From positions 62,001 through 126,000 of the forward strand of contig NZ_JABMKV010000002.1 in NCBI RefSeq assembly GCF_013204825.1: a stretch of DNA of 64,000 bases, given 5' to 3'. This stretch comes from Pedobacter boryungensis. GTDB taxonomy: Bacteria > Bacteroidota > Bacteroidia > Sphingobacteriales > Sphingobacteriaceae. Under the pieces are notes generated by a model. The model was not told the origin of the DNA. It did not search any database and saw nothing but the letters and a program-made list of their open reading frames with translations. Of this stretch, positions 55,847 through 62,970 are shown piece after piece (position 1 is the first letter of the stretch; every line of letters starts with the position of its first letter). The position numbers and the translations under genes were made by a program.

Positions 55847-58222
55847 CTATTTCTTAAGCGTTGTTTCAAACAATTTAAAAATACGTTTATACTCATCTGT
55901 CCAGCTGCTCGGCTCTACAAAACCGTGATCTTCCACTGGGTAAACAGCTAGTTCCCAATTATCTTTCCCTAACTCGATGAAACGCTGAGTCAATCTCACA
56001 ATATCTTGGAAATGTACATTTTCATCTACCATACCATGCAACATTAATAAGTTTCCTTTTAGTTTATCGGCATAATAAATTGGAGAACTCCGTTTATAGG
56101 CAATTGGATCATTGAACGGCTCGTTTAAAATATTTGCTGTATAACCATGATTATAATGTGCCCAATCGGTAACAGAGCGTAAGGCCGCCCCTGCCGCAAA
56201 AACTTCTGGCTCCTTAAACATACCCATCAATGTGATAAACCCGCCGTAAGAGCCGCCATATAAGCCTACATGCTTAGGATTTACGCCATATTTCTCTACC
56301 AACATTTTAACACCATCTACTTGATCCGTTAAGTCTTTTCCACCCATGTCTCTATAAATTCCTGTGCGATGGTTTCTACCATAGCCAGAGCTTGCTGTGT
56401 AATCAATATCAATTACGGTATATCCATTATCCGCTAGTAGATTATTAAACATGTATTCTCTAAAATACTGACTCCACCAGTAATGAACGTTTTGCAAATA
56501 ACCAGCACCATGTACAAACACTACCGCTGGCTTATTAGGGTGAGGATTTGATGTTGGATAAATTCTTGCATACACATCATCACCATAACGATTTTTAAAT
56601 GACAATAGGTCTGGTTGACGCCATTTATAACTATCAAATTCTGCAGTAGTAGATTTTGTAATTTGCACCGCTTTTGCACCTGGTTTGTTTGCTTGGATAT
56701 AGAGCTCCCAAGGTTTATCCATATATGAATAATTGATGGCTAACCATTTTTCGTCTGGGGATAATGTAATTTCATTTCCGCCTTTCATAGCAGTGATTTG
56801 AACTAATTCACCGCCGTTTACACCAACCTTATAAAAATGGGTAATGCCTGGGTGCTCCTTATTTGCAGAGATATAAAAAGTAGTTTTATCTTTTGATAAT
56901 TGTACTCTTTGCACTTCCCATTTACCTGAGGTGATCTGTTTTTTATCGTTTGTTGCAACATTGAAAACATACAGATGGGAATAGCCTGTTGCTTCACTTT
57001 GGAAACAAAAACGATTATTATCAATCCATTCGATACCTCGGCCAACTCCTGGGCCACCTACCCATGCTTCATCACGCTGACGATCTAAGACAGATACATT
57101 ACCTGTTGCAGCATCTAACTTTAAAATCCAAATGTCTTTATTGTCTTGCGCATCAGCAGTAATAATTGCAGTAGTTCCGTTTTCATTCCATTCTGGACTT
57201 CCCAAGTTTACTTTACGATCTTCGTTTTTCTTAGTCCGTTCTTCTAATTCTTTAGGATAGTCTTTTACATAATCTGGTAAGTCTTTTATGCCTGAAATTT
57301 GAGCAATTTTAATGGTGTAGACACTGTCCTTTTCCCCATCGTATAAAAAGCTTTCTGATATAGTCAGGTTTTCGCCAACTTTAGTTCTTCCAGTAATATC
57401 TTCTGTATACCCAGATGCTGTTACGTAATTAGGAACAATAGTATTGTGGTTAGTTGTTATTGGCGTTGTTAAACGATAACTCACAAATCTTCCATCTGGG
57501 CTTGTCACTAATCCTGATAAAAACTTGTCTTCAAGATATATAGGTTTTATTGTTTTTTGATTTGGATCAAAAGCAGCACCAAAACGTCCACGACCTGCAA
57601 AACCTTGAGCTCTTCCACCTGTTTTATTGCGTTTTTTAATAATATCGAAAAGTTCGGTTTGTTCTGTTTTTAACCAAGTATCTTGTAATGAAGGAAGAGG
57701 TCTTTCTGGAGCATTTGGTCTTTTACCTTTTACAAAATTGGTTAATTGTTTAAGTTCATTTGTGGTTAAATTTAGCTGGAATAAATTATCGCCACGTTGA
57801 AAAACAACATCGTTATTATATAAAAATCGAGCTCCATTTTCACGATCAACCGTATTTGTTAACCTAGATTCTTTTTTGCTTTTAACATTGTAAAAGTAAA
57901 TATCGCCTCCTTTTTCATACAAGGCTAAAGATCTGTCTTTATTGTAGGTATAATTATTTCCAGCAGCCTTTGTTGCTTCATTTTCTGTTGCAACTTCTGG
58001 TTTGTTAGTTATAACACTCACTTTGTAAGGTTGGTCCTTTTCCTTGTTTTCAGGATTCCATGTAAAGAAAACAGTTTTACTATCCTCAGACCATCTGTAA
58101 TTTGTTGGAGAAACACCCATCCATTTTGGGTCACGCATTATTTTTTGAACTGATAAAGGAGCAAGCTGTTGTGCTTGCGCATAAGCAGATATTAGTAAAA
58201 AGCCTAATAGATATTTTTTCAT
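55847..58222 (-). CDS. S9-family serine peptidase (prolyl oligopeptidase/DPP IV-like)
   Basis: A 791-residue exported peptidase with a signal peptide (about 1-17, ending AQAQ). An N-terminal beta-propeller (about 30-540) with WSEDSKTVFFTWNPE, YNKDRSLALYEKG and SPDGRFVSY blades precedes the alpha/beta-hydrolase domain (about 550-790). The catalytic triad is clear: Ser in GLYGGSYGG (near 656), Asp in HGMVDENVHF (near 730) and His in VEDHGFVEP (near 763). Such enzymes remove N-terminal dipeptides, often X-Pro, from peptides in the periplasm. It stands at the end of a minus-strand run with two M14-type genes and a secreted FAD-type gene. Confidence 0.92.
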   Translation of the reverse strand: MKKYLLGFLLISAYAQAQQLAPLSVQKIMRDPKWMGVSPTNYRWSEDSKTVFFTWNPENKEKDQPYKVSVITNKPEVATENEATKAAGNNYTYNKDRSLALYEKGGDIYFYNVKSKKESRLTNTVDRENGARFLYNNDVVFQRGDNLFQLNLTTNELKQLTNFVKGKRPNAPERPLPSLQDTWLKTEQTELFDIIKKRNKTGGRAQGFAGRGRFGAAFDPNQKTIKPIYLEDKFLSGLVTSPDGRFVSYRLTTPITTNHNTIVPNYVTASGYTEDITGRTKVGENLTISESFLYDGEKDSVYTIKIAQISGIKDLPDYVKDYPKELEERTKKNEDRKVNLGSPEWNENGTTAIITADAQDNKDIWILKLDAATGNVSVLDRQRDEAWVGGPGVGRGIEWIDNNRFCFQSEATGYSHLYVFNVATNDKKQITSGKWEVQRVQLSKDKTTFYISANKEHPGITHFYKVGVNGGELVQITAMKGGNEITLSPDEKWLAINYSYMDKPWELYIQANKPGAKAVQITKSTTAEFDSYKWRQPDLLSFKNRYGDDVYARIYPTSNPHPNKPAVVFVHGAGYLQNVHYWWSQYFREYMFNNLLADNGYTVIDIDYTASSGYGRNHRTGIYRDMGGKDLTDQVDGVKMLVEKYGVNPKHVGLYGGSYGGFITLMGMFKEPEVFAAGAALRSVTDWAHYNHGYTANILNEPFNDPIAYKRSSPIYYADKLKGNLLMLHGMVDENVHFQDIVRLTQRFIELGKDNWELAVYPVEDHGFVEPSSWTDEYKRIFKLFETTLKK

Positions 58223-58270: not shown

Positions 58271-60004
58271 TTAATTAGTTTTGCTGGCAACACCACCCTT
58301 TTTGCTACTTACATTTACAGTAAATCTATTTCCTCCTTTTACTAACCAGCGAACAGTTACAAAAGAATTACCTGCAATATTATTTACTTTAATATTTGCT
58401 GGATCCATTTTTTGTTCAGTTGTAAAATTCATATCACGGTTATTTACAATCATCCCTGCAACCACATTTCCACCAGTTAAGGAGATAATATCTGGTGTTT
58501 CAATGTTATTTTTTACATCCTGACTTGAGTGTGTAGGAATCATTCTGTCGTTGGTTACTACCGCCGTTACTTGTGTTAATCCACCACCTATTTCTTTCAC
58601 TTCAATTTCTCCTACGTTTAATTTTGGAGTGTTATACGCATGATAAATACTAAAGGCCATGTTTCTGTGAGCATCGCTTTCTAACAAAAATCCCGGATGT
58701 AAACGTGTATATGTTTTCTTAAATCCACCAATTTCGATATCGCCATAAGTTGGATGTTTATACGGATGCCAATCTACAAATGCATCTTTCATCAAGAGGT
58801 CCTTATCAAAAGTATATATCTGTGTTTGGCTATCTTCACCATCAGCTTTATTATACATCGAATAGCCAGTCCACAATTCGTTAGAGAATGTATAAATTCC
58901 TCTTCCACCATAAAACCAATCTAATTCTCCACCAAAAACAGAATACAAATCTTTATAAACCACTAAATATTTATATCCTGGAAGCATTTCTTCTCCTTTT
59001 TTACCTAGCGCATCGTACACTCTTACATCTTGTGCATTGTATGTGTCTAAATCTTCTAAAGCGCCGGGGCCTCTTAAAATCATCCCGCCATTGTTATGGT
59101 AAGATTGAGCTGCCGCGATGTTGGGATGTTTCATTACAAAATCTAAAATTGCTCTGTTTTCTGGGATGGAGAAAGGATATTTATAAGCACCTCCTTGAAT
59201 ATAATTTGGTTGCCAATTCCATCCCCAATCGCGGTTAGGATCATAAGCGCCTTCACCATCTTCATTTACGAAACCATCGCCATCATTATCAATTCCCTCT
59301 GATCCTAATAATTCATATTCTCCTTTTTCATCATTCCCTACCATAATCATTCTTCTAGAATCTGTTGGATCGACTTTGTAACGACCAGTTGCGCTTTTAC
59401 GGCGCATCATTACGATGTTTCCATCTCCATCTAAATCATCAAAGCCGTCTTCGTTTGTTGCTCCATCTCTATCGTTATCAATGGGTATTAATCCTGTACG
59501 AGGAGAATGTGCTGTATTTGCTTGATGAATAAAACTATCTCTCGCATCTGGGTTAATGGTTGGAGCGATATAGAAAGTTTTTTCCGCTAGTAAAGATTGG
59601 ATTGCTTTATTACCCGCATCGTACATTTCTGCTAAATACCATGCTGTATATAAGGCGAATTCGCTTCCTTGTATTTCGTTAGAGTGGATATTACCATCGA
59701 TATACATGGCAGGTTTTTTATCGGCATTACCAACTTTTGTATCTGTAATGGTCATTACCCAGAGTTCTTTCCCCTGAAAAGATTTACCCATCGATTCAAG
59801 CTTTACCAAGTTTGGATGAGCTGCGGCCAATTTTTTACAGATTTCTGTAATTGCCGTATGATCGTTGTAACGGTTCCAACTAATTTGAACTTTAGGATTT
59901 GGTGGTGTACCAACTGCTGCTAATAGATTTTCGGGTTTTTGAGCTTTTAAATTTCCGGCACACAAAAATAGTACAGCCAGAAGAATAGTATGTTTGATTC
60001 TCAT
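58271..60004 (-). CDS. Secreted M14-family zinc carboxypeptidase
   Basis: A 577-residue exported metallopeptidase. I place the start at ATG 60004 (MRIKHTILLAVL, a clean signal peptide to residue 22), 13 bases after the upstream paralogue's stop; the longer frame from 60067 overlaps it. The zinc ligands of M14 enzymes are visible: His107-x2-Glu110 in DGNIHSNEIQG, His in QSYHNNGGM and the catalytic Glu in TFSNELWTG. Between the first two ligands lies an acidic insertion rich in DxDxDG motifs (DNDRDGATNEDG, DLDGDGN, DNDGDGFVNEDG) that probably binds calcium. A C-terminal beta-domain follows. It should trim C-terminal residues from peptides in the periplasm. A tandem paralogue sits upstream. Confidence 0.9.
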   Translation of the reverse strand: MRIKHTILLAVLFLCAGNLKAQKPENLLAAVGTPPNPKVQISWNRYNDHTAITEICKKLAAAHPNLVKLESMGKSFQGKELWVMTITDTKVGNADKKPAMYIDGNIHSNEIQGSEFALYTAWYLAEMYDAGNKAIQSLLAEKTFYIAPTINPDARDSFIHQANTAHSPRTGLIPIDNDRDGATNEDGFDDLDGDGNIVMMRRKSATGRYKVDPTDSRRMIMVGNDEKGEYELLGSEGIDNDGDGFVNEDGEGAYDPNRDWGWNWQPNYIQGGAYKYPFSIPENRAILDFVMKHPNIAAAQSYHNNGGMILRGPGALEDLDTYNAQDVRVYDALGKKGEEMLPGYKYLVVYKDLYSVFGGELDWFYGGRGIYTFSNELWTGYSMYNKADGEDSQTQIYTFDKDLLMKDAFVDWHPYKHPTYGDIEIGGFKKTYTRLHPGFLLESDAHRNMAFSIYHAYNTPKLNVGEIEVKEIGGGLTQVTAVVTNDRMIPTHSSQDVKNNIETPDIISLTGGNVVAGMIVNNRDMNFTTEQKMDPANIKVNNIAGNSFVTVRWLVKGGNRFTVNVSSKKGGVASKTN

Positions 60005-60017
60005 TGTCTTGTCTGAT

Positions 60018-61661
60018 TTATAGTGATACCTCAATAGATTTACTTCCTGTGGTTGGGCTGCCAGCATCGATAGTTATTTTACCGGTACCTTTTATCAACC
60101 ACGTTAATTCTTTATATTCTTTACCTTGAATACCCTCTAATGACTGGGTCTTCCTTCCGCTCACTACGATTTGGTTCGCATTAGTATTTACTTTTACTGT
60201 AATCTTTTTTAAGAAATAACTACGGTCTCCAATTTTTGTGTACGTTGGCAAATCACCACGATTTAAAACACTTAGCGTAACACGAGTTAATCCGTCAGCA
60301 ACTTTTTCAGTTTTCACATTTACCATATCTATTTGAGGAGCCATCGCTGCTAATCCTACAATAAAATCTGTGTGTTTCGCTACAATTCCATCTACCATTT
60401 TATAAGGTGGATTGATTAACACAAAAGGATCAACACCGCCAACTTCCACAGTTTTTCCTGGAAAATCTGGATGAGAAACGGCTTTCCAAGGGGTGAAAGT
60501 GTCTGTAATTCCCTGACTTGCAGCCCAACGTAAATAAGAGGCTGTTTGATCTTCATTTGTAAATTTCTTTTCTTTTTTAGCCGAATCTGGTGCAGTTTTA
60601 GGTACCCACCAACCTGGTGTGCTAAAGCTTAATCTTCCGTAATGGAAATATGCCCATTGTGAAAAATCGCCACTTTCTGCTTGAGTTTTTGGTGCGTCTT
60701 TTGTTTTGGTGATTTTATTATATCGTTCAGAAACTAAAGCATTTGTTTTTGCATCCGTATCGAACCAACCCGTAATAACTCGCTTAGAAATTGCCGCGGG
60801 ATTAAAAGTAACTGGTGTAGATAAGTTATTCGTAGGACCAAAAGTAACTACGGCATATACATTAAAGGCATCAAATAAGAAATCAAAAAGTGCTCTGTTT
60901 TCTTTTTCTGAAACTGCATAATCTCCAGTTCCGGGCATAAATCCTTTAAAATTATAACTTGAGTTTTTATTGAAATGAATTCCTCCATCACCGTCTTCAT
61001 TGAAATCACCGTCTTTATCATCATCTATTCCCTCAGACAATAAAATATATTTTCCAGTTTCTCCTTTACTGGCATCGGCTAGTAATAAAGAGCGGGGATC
61101 ATCGGTATTTAATTTATATTTTCCTGTTGGATCAAGAATGCGCATCCAAGTAATTTTTCCATTTCCATCCAAATCGTCTACATCATCTTCATTTACTTTG
61201 CCATCTCTATCGTCATCCGTTTTCATTGCATTTCCACTACGCTCAGATTTAACTTTAGCGAAATATTGTTCAGTAGCATCTGGGCTCATGTTCGGAAATA
61301 CATAAAATGTTTGTTTGTTGAGGAGATTTTTAATGCTATCTACATTAGAGGAAGCCATTAATTTTTCCGCAAAGCCGATAGCCATTTCTACACCTAAAAG
61401 ATGTTTTCCTTCTACACCACCAACAACTGCAATAGCTGGTTTTTGTTCCGTTTTACCAGAACCCATGGTCAGCATCCAAATGTCTTTTCCACCTACGGTT
61501 TGCGTTAAAGATTTAGTTTTTACCCATTGTGGGTATTTGTCTGAAAGCGCTTTAACTCGTTGAGCTAAGCGGATATTGTTACTATAATCTTGTTGATTTT
61601 GTGCGAAAGCATTACATAGCATTAGCAGAAAGAACAGATTAAAAAGGTAAAGTTTCTTCAT
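60018..61661 (-). CDS. M14-like secreted paralogue lacking the canonical zinc site
   Basis: A 547-residue exported protein with a signal peptide (about 1-20, CNAFAQ). It is clearly homologous along its length to the next gene: KPAIAVVGGVEGKHLLGVE aligns with KPAMYIDGNIHSNEIQGSE, and it has the same acidic DxDxDG inserts (TDDDRDGKVNEDDVDDLDG, DDDKDGDFNEDGDGG). But at the zinc-binding HxxE it has Glu84-Gly-Lys-His87 (order reversed), at the third ligand it has FGPTNN instead of YHNNGG, and the catalytic Glu region reads SFSTPGWW instead of TFSNELW. Every catalytic position is therefore altered, and it is probably a pseudo-enzyme or has a different activity. It could bind peptides or assist the active paralogue. 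Confidence 0.85.
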   Translation of the reverse strand: MKKLYLFNLFFLLMLCNAFAQNQQDYSNNIRLAQRVKALSDKYPQWVKTKSLTQTVGGKDIWMLTMGSGKTEQKPAIAVVGGVEGKHLLGVEMAIGFAEKLMASSNVDSIKNLLNKQTFYVFPNMSPDATEQYFAKVKSERSGNAMKTDDDRDGKVNEDDVDDLDGNGKITWMRILDPTGKYKLNTDDPRSLLLADASKGETGKYILLSEGIDDDKDGDFNEDGDGGIHFNKNSSYNFKGFMPGTGDYAVSEKENRALFDFLFDAFNVYAVVTFGPTNNLSTPVTFNPAAISKRVITGWFDTDAKTNALVSERYNKITKTKDAPKTQAESGDFSQWAYFHYGRLSFSTPGWWVPKTAPDSAKKEKKFTNEDQTASYLRWAASQGITDTFTPWKAVSHPDFPGKTVEVGGVDPFVLINPPYKMVDGIVAKHTDFIVGLAAMAPQIDMVNVKTEKVADGLTRVTLSVLNRGDLPTYTKIGDRSYFLKKITVKVNTNANQIVVSGRKTQSLEGIQGKEYKELTWLIKGTGKITIDAGSPTTGSKSIEVSL

Positions 61662-61767: not shown

Positions 61768-62970
61768 TTATCTAACCACTTTACCGTTTTGGTCTATATT
61801 CACATTAAATGGCGGCATATAATCTTGTAATAAAACAGCAAACTCCCTACGCGTTATTTGTCTCTTTAAATCTAACTCCGTTTTAAATTGATATGTTGTT
61901 TTCCACTTTTTCTCTAATCCTTTTTTTGTATCGTCTAATGATTTATTACCTACGTAACACACTAAATCTATAGCAGATCCGATTGTTATTTGTGGCGCTT
62001 TATAGTCATCAAACCAAATTTGAGCTTTGTAATAGAAATCTTTTAAAGGTTGTTTAATTTCTTCGGTAGTTACCAGTTTATCTGGAGAAAAATTTGCAAT
62101 CTTTTCTTTAATATCTGCTTTTAATAACCCTGTTATACCTACCATCTGAATTGCTTTCCAATTCGTATCTGCAGTTTTGATATCGGCAAAAGGCATTAAA
62201 TTTAACCTATAGTTAATTAGTTCTCCTTGTATTTTTTTTAAATTAGAAAGTGAGGTTTTAGTATCATAAAAAGCTGAATAGGCTGCAGTAGCTCCTGCGG
62301 CTTGACCAAGCAACATACTATTTGGGTTCTCTATCCACACCAAATTCTCTTGTTCAGGAACAAAAAAACTATACAATGAAAAGAAGGTAGCGTTTGTTCC
62401 GTTAACTGATTTTCCAGATGAAACACTTGTTCTGTAAATCGTAGGTGTATAGTTCAATTCTGCCCAGTTTGCAATTGATTTTATAACTATTTTTAAAGTT
62501 TCATTCAATTTTGCATCACCTGGATTAATGAATACTTTTGGTTTTAGTGTACTTCCATCACTTAATTTAAAATTCCAATTATTTCCTGATCGCTCTGCTT
62601 TAACCCATAATATATTTCGAATAATGGTTAAATTTTTAATACTATCAGCCCAAATGGTTAATACATTGTTGGCTGCTTGTTTGTCGAGGCTGGATAACTT
62701 TTTATCACCGTTTTTACTAACAAACTCCTTGTATTTTTTTAAGAATGTTTCTTGTATTCCCGAATTTAAATCATTTTCAATTGGCGAAATATCGAAGCCT
62801 CCAGCTTGCAATAAAATTGTCGTCTTTACCCCAGAAATGGCCGACTGAAACCCTGCGGCAACTGCTGCATTTCCGTTTCCGATCACCAATACTCCTGGCT
62901 TCAATGTTTGTGCGTTTGCATAATCAAAGAAGATTATTAAGACCAAAGCAAAAAATAAATTTTTTCTCAT
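61768..62970 (-). CDS. Secreted FAD-dependent-oxidoreductase-like protein
   Basis: A 400-residue exported protein with a signal peptide (about 1-20, DYANAQ). The mature N-terminus has a Rossmann-like nucleotide-binding segment GVLVIGNGNAAVAAG (about 26-40), and a conserved GQAAGATAAY segment lies near residue 225. It fits the FAD-dependent oxidoreductases (PF12831-like) that Bacteroidota export, but the dinucleotide motif is GxGxAA rather than the classic GxGxxG, so cofactor binding is not certain. The C-terminus (RQITRREFAVLLQDY) resembles the last part of such proteins. It is at the promoter-proximal end of the minus-strand peptidase run, 106 bases upstream of the M14-like gene. Confidence 0.6.
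   Translation of the reverse strand: MRKNLFFALVLIIFFDYANAQTLKPGVLVIGNGNAAVAAGFQSAISGVKTTILLQAGGFDISPIENDLNSGIQETFLKKYKEFVSKNGDKKLSSLDKQAANNVLTIWADSIKNLTIIRNILWVKAERSGNNWNFKLSDGSTLKPKVFINPGDAKLNETLKIVIKSIANWAELNYTPTIYRTSVSSGKSVNGTNATFFSLYSFFVPEQENLVWIENPNSMLLGQAAGATAAYSAFYDTKTSLSNLKKIQGELINYRLNLMPFADIKTADTNWKAIQMVGITGLLKADIKEKIANFSPDKLVTTEEIKQPLKDFYYKAQIWFDDYKAPQITIGSAIDLVCYVGNKSLDDTKKGLEKKWKTTYQFKTELDLKRQITRREFAVLLQDYMPPFNVNIDQNGKVVR

Follow-up and report, generated by a model that had tools for sequence, protein, structure and literature searches.

A conserved M14 pseudopeptidase encoded beside its active sister in Pedobacter boryungensis, a candidate non-catalytic partner of an exported carboxypeptidase

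A gene of Pedobacter boryungensis, here called PSEUDO, encodes a protein of the M14 carboxypeptidase family in which the zinc ligands and the catalytic glutamate have been replaced, and it is directly followed by a gene for an intact M14 carboxypeptidase, here called ACTIVE. By analogy with α-MPP of family M16, we propose that PSEUDO serves as a non-catalytic partner of the probably exported ACTIVE enzyme, with a probability of about 0.55. Both genes lie in the window, that is, the whole stretch of DNA that was analysed (64,000 nucleotides, positions 62,001 to 126,000 of contig NZ_JABMKV010000002.1). On its minus strand the gene order is the gene at 61768-62970, PSEUDO, ACTIVE and an S9 peptidase (Table 1).

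Table 1 Features of the PSEUDO-ACTIVE pair and its downstream neighbour, in window coordinates. Residue numbers are those of PSEUDO, or of CPA where a CPA equivalent is named.
Feature	Position	Strand	Basis or description
PSEUDO, pseudo-M14 gene, ORF of 547 aa	60018-61661	-	M14 fold; hydrophobic N-terminal helix; beta-rich C-terminal part
EGKH (E84-H87), replacing zinc-binding HxxE (CPA H69, E72)	61401-61412	-	Sequence alignments and carboxypeptidase T profile alignment
Acidic DxDxDG-type insertion, D149-D223	60993-61217	-	Calcium-loop-like; contains R174 and I175 (likely R127 equivalent)
N231-K232, equivalent of substrate-carboxylate-binding N144-R145	60966-60971	-	
FGPTNNL (274-280), replacing the segment with third zinc ligand H196	60822-60842	-	
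YFHYGRLSFSTPGW (338-351), replacing the segment with catalytic E270	60609-60650	-	Includes H340 and P349
ACTIVE, active M14 sister, ORF of 598 aa, probable start 60004	58271-60067	-	Two Pfam M14 stretches
HSNE zinc motif of ACTIVE	59675-59686	-	
Third zinc ligand His of ACTIVE (H196 equivalent)	59096-59098	-	
Catalytic Glu of ACTIVE (E270 equivalent)	58877-58879	-	
S9 (DPP IV-like) peptidase, downstream of ACTIVE	55847-58222	-	Context only

PSEUDO is an M14 protein by both fold and sequence family. It matches Pfam PF00246 with an E-value of 1e-16 and aligns with ACTIVE at 26% identity over 553 columns (E 1e-42 in a single comparison), far past chance, as the original prediction of homology to the adjacent intact carboxypeptidase had it. 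The structure predicted by AlphaFold2 from 61 rows has a mean pLDDT of 90.8 and a pTM of 0.89. Among solved structures it comes closest to carboxypeptidase T entries (Z up to 31.1, rmsd 2.9 over 292 residues, 18% identity), and a Foldseek list likewise consists of M14 carboxypeptidases; profile search and structure prediction, two of the checks proposed at the outset, both place PSEUDO in M14. In the model, the replaced residues come directly after strands 76-81, 268-274 and 344-348, and the C-terminal 100 residues are β-rich. The genome of the window has seven M14-matching places above the family cut-off, of which PSEUDO accounts for one and ACTIVE for two.

A scan of 61 members of the PSEUDO family finds the PF00246 match in every one, and an NCBIfam model match in none of the 61, nor in PSEUDO itself. 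PSEUDO-type proteins are thus likely to be annotated automatically as carboxypeptidases. At the thresholds used PF00246 was the only match, and none to family M16 was found in PSEUDO, ACTIVE or the 61 scanned members.

The catalytic site of PSEUDO has been rewritten. Residues are referred to in CPA numbering, in agreement with the numbers listed in Table 2 of PMC11266112. In sequence alignments, the zinc ligands H69, E72 and H196 correspond to E84, H87 and G275, catalytic E270 to P349, and R127 likely to I175. The anchor N144-R145 is found as N231-K232. A second, profile-based alignment to carboxypeptidase T agrees at the first zinc motif, at the third ligand and at the N-R pair; as it ends two residues short of the catalytic glutamate, the match of E270 to P349 comes from the sequence alignments alone, as do the equivalents of R127 and Y248, the latter probably gone. 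The motif changes first read by eye (HSNE to EGKH, YHNNGG to FGPTNN and SNELW to STPGW) are confirmed by alignment and their coordinates verified. The accompanying statement that all active-site positions differ went slightly too far: it stands for the zinc ligands and E270, but N144 is kept and R145 is conservatively lysine. The acidic DxDxDG insertion, also part of the original prediction, is common to both proteins and conserved in both families.

The same losses extend through the family. We compared 144 PSEUDO with 97 ACTIVE sequences, non-identical sets from which PSEUDO ORFs below 480 aa, ACTIVE ORFs below 560 aa and same-core duplicates had been dropped. Each sequence was labelled by the better of two profiles built from members, and a tree of 80 rows with three outgroup rows agrees with this division. 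Of the 144 PSEUDO sequences, 1 retains H69, 2 retain E72 and none has H196 or E270; the corresponding counts for ACTIVE are 96, 96, 97 and 97 of 97. The likely R127 equivalent is V or I in 143/144 PSEUDO members (V, I or Y in all 144) and R in 95/97 ACTIVE members. Even PSEUDO members only 30-40% identical to the window protein share the losses. Beyond the 144, three deep pseudo branches (L214, L216 and L218) are also without HxxE, H196 and E270; they have E at the H69 place and N-R-N at 144-146.

What replaces the lost residues is itself conserved to varying degrees. E or D occurs at position 84 in 122/144 members, H87 in 118, G or S at 275 in 140 and P349 in 133, while H340 and R174 are invariant (144/144) and N279 nearly so (140/144). 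The N144 equivalent is N in 123/144, and the R145 equivalent is K in 96 and R in 31 (K or R in 127/144). This N-(K/R) pair, retained at the old carboxylate-binding place, suggests that PSEUDO may keep some residual binding of peptide C-termini. Judged by its aligned residues, PSEUDO lacks the HxxE, H196, E270 and R127 of an active M14 metallocarboxypeptidase. With an M14 fold, evolutionary conservation and the loss of residues for zinc binding, base and oxyanion function, it is an M14 pseudopeptidase whose inactivity is predicted.

ACTIVE, in contrast, keeps all the residues altered in the catalytic site of PSEUDO, and matches the Pfam M14 family with an E-value of 2.4e-37. The first ATG of its ORF would give an overlap of 50 bases with the PSEUDO gene. 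Translation probably begins with the ATG at 60004 and yields a signal-like N-terminus, so the two genes need not overlap. ACTIVE was also modelled by AlphaFold2 from an alignment of 19 rows; the poor result (pLDDT 67.9) was set aside. By a simple hydropathy test, a hydrophobic N-terminal stretch is present in 98% of the 144 PSEUDO and 93% of the 97 ACTIVE sequences, and export of both proteins is likely on this ground. A separate partial loss is seen at another locus, L212 (508-2232, plus strand), where two active-type genes stand in tandem: the first keeps HANE and the catalytic Glu and has Leu for the third His (LYLNTGG).

The two genes form a stable unit. Among the named loci, which are the best 80 of at least 255 confirmed PSEUDO candidates, 75 have ACTIVE following PSEUDO on the same strand. 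Four of the five remaining loci (L135, L148, L162 and L171) end at or near a contig edge, and L165 is a real exception. The gap between the genes in these best 80 of at least 255 has a median of 10 bp, 10th and 90th percentiles of about 1 and 68 bp and a maximum of 397 bp, values that are approximate because the first ATG of each ORF was used. L156 has its ACTIVE gene spread over two frames, and in L109 and L110 the listed ACTIVE ORF starts late. No natural PSEUDO-ACTIVE fusion was found among the named loci listed (the best 80 of at least 255). When 20 loci are viewed more widely, PSEUDO and ACTIVE are adjacent in 18; S9 and one additional gene cluster each reach 6/20, all remaining families 4/20 or fewer, and most flanks differ.

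The hosts of these best 80 loci include Pedobacter, Sphingobacterium, Chitinophagaceae, Algoriphagus, Cellulophaga, Runella, Rufibacter and Saprospiraceae, together with Bacteroidales MAGs, one Balneolaceae MAG (Balneolota) and three Planctomycetota MAGs. The Planctomycetota loci are L165, L171 and L172; for L165, ACTIVE is found elsewhere in the genome. At one further locus, L213 (6233-7866, plus strand), the PSEUDO gene is broken into overlapping frames of 186 and 365 aa, with two active-type genes in tandem downstream of it.

Relatives of PSEUDO turned up in 13 of the 60 genomes sampled within the genus (E up to 1e-30, all candidates scored), 34 of 201 of the family (1e-55, up to seven candidates scored per genome), 13 of 395 of the class (1e-55, at most three per genome) and 34 of 395 of the phylum (profile search, 1e-70, at most three per genome); each draw includes the genome of the window. 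ACTIVE is present in the same 13 genus genomes and in the same 34 family genomes (up to six ACTIVE candidates scored per genome), so the search for the pair in other Sphingobacteriaceae, suggested with the original prediction, recovers both genes together. In the phylum sample, with at most three candidates scored per genome, ACTIVE occurs in 37 of 395 genomes, namely all 34 with PSEUDO plus G727, G849 and G900. G849 has a divergent PSEUDO upstream of ACTIVE, just past the phylum cut-off (1.0e-69), and in G900 the contig start truncates PSEUDO to a fragment. In G727, where ACTIVE begins at the contig start, the search gave no PSEUDO match besides ACTIVE itself. Absences in the phylum search are soft, given the number of candidates scored.

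For the phylum table, Fisher's test returns 5e-46, a value to which we give little weight, since the genomes are not independent by descent and adjacent genes can disappear at once. Loss of both neighbours in a single event accounts for much of the shared presence and absence, and only four unlinked cases are free of that explanation. In G419, G520, G775 and the genome of L165, an unlinked PSEUDO lies inside a contig; all four hold ACTIVE elsewhere, with HxNE, NR, HN and the catalytic Glu intact. These four genomes are more telling for the pairing than Fisher's test.

Both genes are under purifying selection. Compared with Pedobacter planticolens, PSEUDO has a dN/dS of 0.048 and ACTIVE one of 0.018; the respective values are 0.036 and 0.042 against L094 and 0.046 and 0.044 against L073, with dS above 1 in the latter two comparisons. 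In two more comparisons dS was saturated, and no value was obtained. A quick maximum-likelihood tree was built from 80 rows (13 from further loci, most others from the 144/97 set) and three outgroup rows, 83 in all. It separates 49 PSEUDO from 31 ACTIVE rows, each group by a single change. Support is 87 for the PSEUDO clade, below the starred level, and 99 for the ACTIVE clade. The two are likely sister clades, short of proof because the three outgroup rows sit on long branches. Over 25 matched row pairs, mean identity is 38% for PSEUDO and 51% for ACTIVE, consistent with a single ancient duplication after which PSEUDO evolved faster. The correlation of PSEUDO and ACTIVE distances over the same number of pairs (r 0.88, 25 pairs) was not counted as evidence of pairing, since shared descent explains it.

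A decaying duplicate, kept only by its recency or its linkage to ACTIVE, would account for one split copy (L213) and one with an internal stop (L060). It is nevertheless extremely improbable: dN/dS is about 0.05, members at 30-40% identity share the losses, and the internal stop occurs in a single match among the genus, family, class and phylum matches listed. We rejected decay on the dN/dS value and the family-wide loss of the same residues. Together with adjacency in 75 of the best 80 of at least 255 loci and the co-occurrence, these findings uphold the central claim of the original prediction, a conserved pseudo-enzyme in a unit with its active sister. That prediction also allowed for a new metal or active site, and this branch has been weakened. 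A pocket rebuilt in this way, making PSEUDO an enzyme in its own right, would explain the conservation of H340, R174 (144/144 each), N279 (140/144), E/D84 (122/144) and H87 (118/144). However, E/D84 and H87 stand together in only 97/144 members, K, S, Q, Y, R and others being found at these places, and the H196 place is not regularly taken by a ligand-type residue in the 144 (G or S in 140). The joint count disfavours a strict ExxH metal site, which we did not retain, and an independent enzyme seems a very doubtful proposition.

PSEUDO might instead aid the folding or maturation of ACTIVE, or be a periplasmic peptide-binding chaperone, in either case outside the mature enzyme. Its place as first gene of the unit, the joint occurrence and the unlinked retention fit such a helper equally well. 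A full M14 fold and near-invariant putative pocket residues (H340 in 144/144, N279 in 140/144) seem more than a helper would need, which is a weak argument. We consider this explanation rather unlikely. The fixed pairing would also suit an inhibitor or regulator that fills the cleft of ACTIVE or competes for its substrate, and active cousins are sometimes regulated by pseudoenzymes, as stated in an excerpt of PMC11266112; we regard this role as distinctly unlikely. Docking, chaperone and inhibitor roles of PSEUDO are inseparable by sequence. At a similarly low probability we place a bolder version of the partnership, in which the emptied M14 pocket is rebuilt as a new site (H340, R174, N279, mostly E/D84 and H87, and N-K) and the pair makes a two-headed exported machine, one head cutting and the other binding or modifying peptide C-termini. 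Such a machine, if real, would be spread across Bacteroidota and beyond.

In the preferred reading, PSEUDO as non-catalytic partner, the two exported proteins would assemble into a hetero-oligomer, a physical contact that we infer. The ACTIVE chain would remove C-terminal residues, and the PSEUDO chain would give stability, substrate docking or specificity; its N-(K/R) pair may hold peptide C-termini without cutting them. Labour would thus be divided as in α- and β-MPP of family M16, transposed to M14. According to excerpts of PMC11266112, α-MPP is an inactive homologue that helps to form the active centre and binds substrate, and its prokaryotic relatives come from a two-gene operon. Bacterial M16B peptidases are described in excerpts of PMC11266112 and PMC12731061 as homologous active and inactive chains from a two-gene operon. 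These heterodimers are analogues in the way they work, an inactive homologue being encoded beside an active one as in PSEUDO-ACTIVE; they belong to another peptidase family, and the complex of the window pair is hypothetical.

Compared with the M14 carboxypeptidases themselves (carboxypeptidase T, A/B), PSEUDO is alike in fold (Z 31.1), in Pfam family and, in most members, in N144 and a basic residue at 145. It differs in the equivalents of the zinc ligands, E270 and R127, and in a large acidic insertion that ACTIVE also has. Known M14 pseudopeptidases (AEBP1, CPXM1, CPXM2, CPD domain III and fungal Ecm14) have the M14 fold and have lost critical catalytic or substrate-binding residues, as reported in parts of PMC11266112. 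Table 2 of that article shows H69 kept in all five and E72 in four of the five, whereas PSEUDO is without any zinc ligand or base. They are animal or fungal proteins, for which the excerpts of PMC11266112 used here describe no gene pairing with an active M14 enzyme; the PSEUDO family is bacterial and paired. Among the matches listed in the open-licence PMC literature, we found no bacterial M14 pseudo/active pair. Should the two proteins form a heteromer, they would make up a carboxypeptidase of two subunits, one of them a dead paralogue. M16 peptidases are known to be built in this way; for M14 no case was found among those open-licence matches. The pair also offers a simple bacterial system for asking why dead enzymes persist beside live ones.

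S9 (DPP IV-like) genes like the one downstream of ACTIVE are present in 6 of the 20 wider loci (L073-L075 and L078-L080); they adjoin the pair in some and lie several genes off in L078. Their recurrence hints at a peptide-degradation setting. Upstream of PSEUDO, the gene at 61768-62970 (minus strand) scores 21.5 bits against FAD_oxidored, below the cut-off of 27, and its Rossmann-type motif is altered (GNGNAA). It is possibly a second degenerate enzyme of the same operon, and a gene of this type stands upstream of the pair in 12 of the 13 genus loci.
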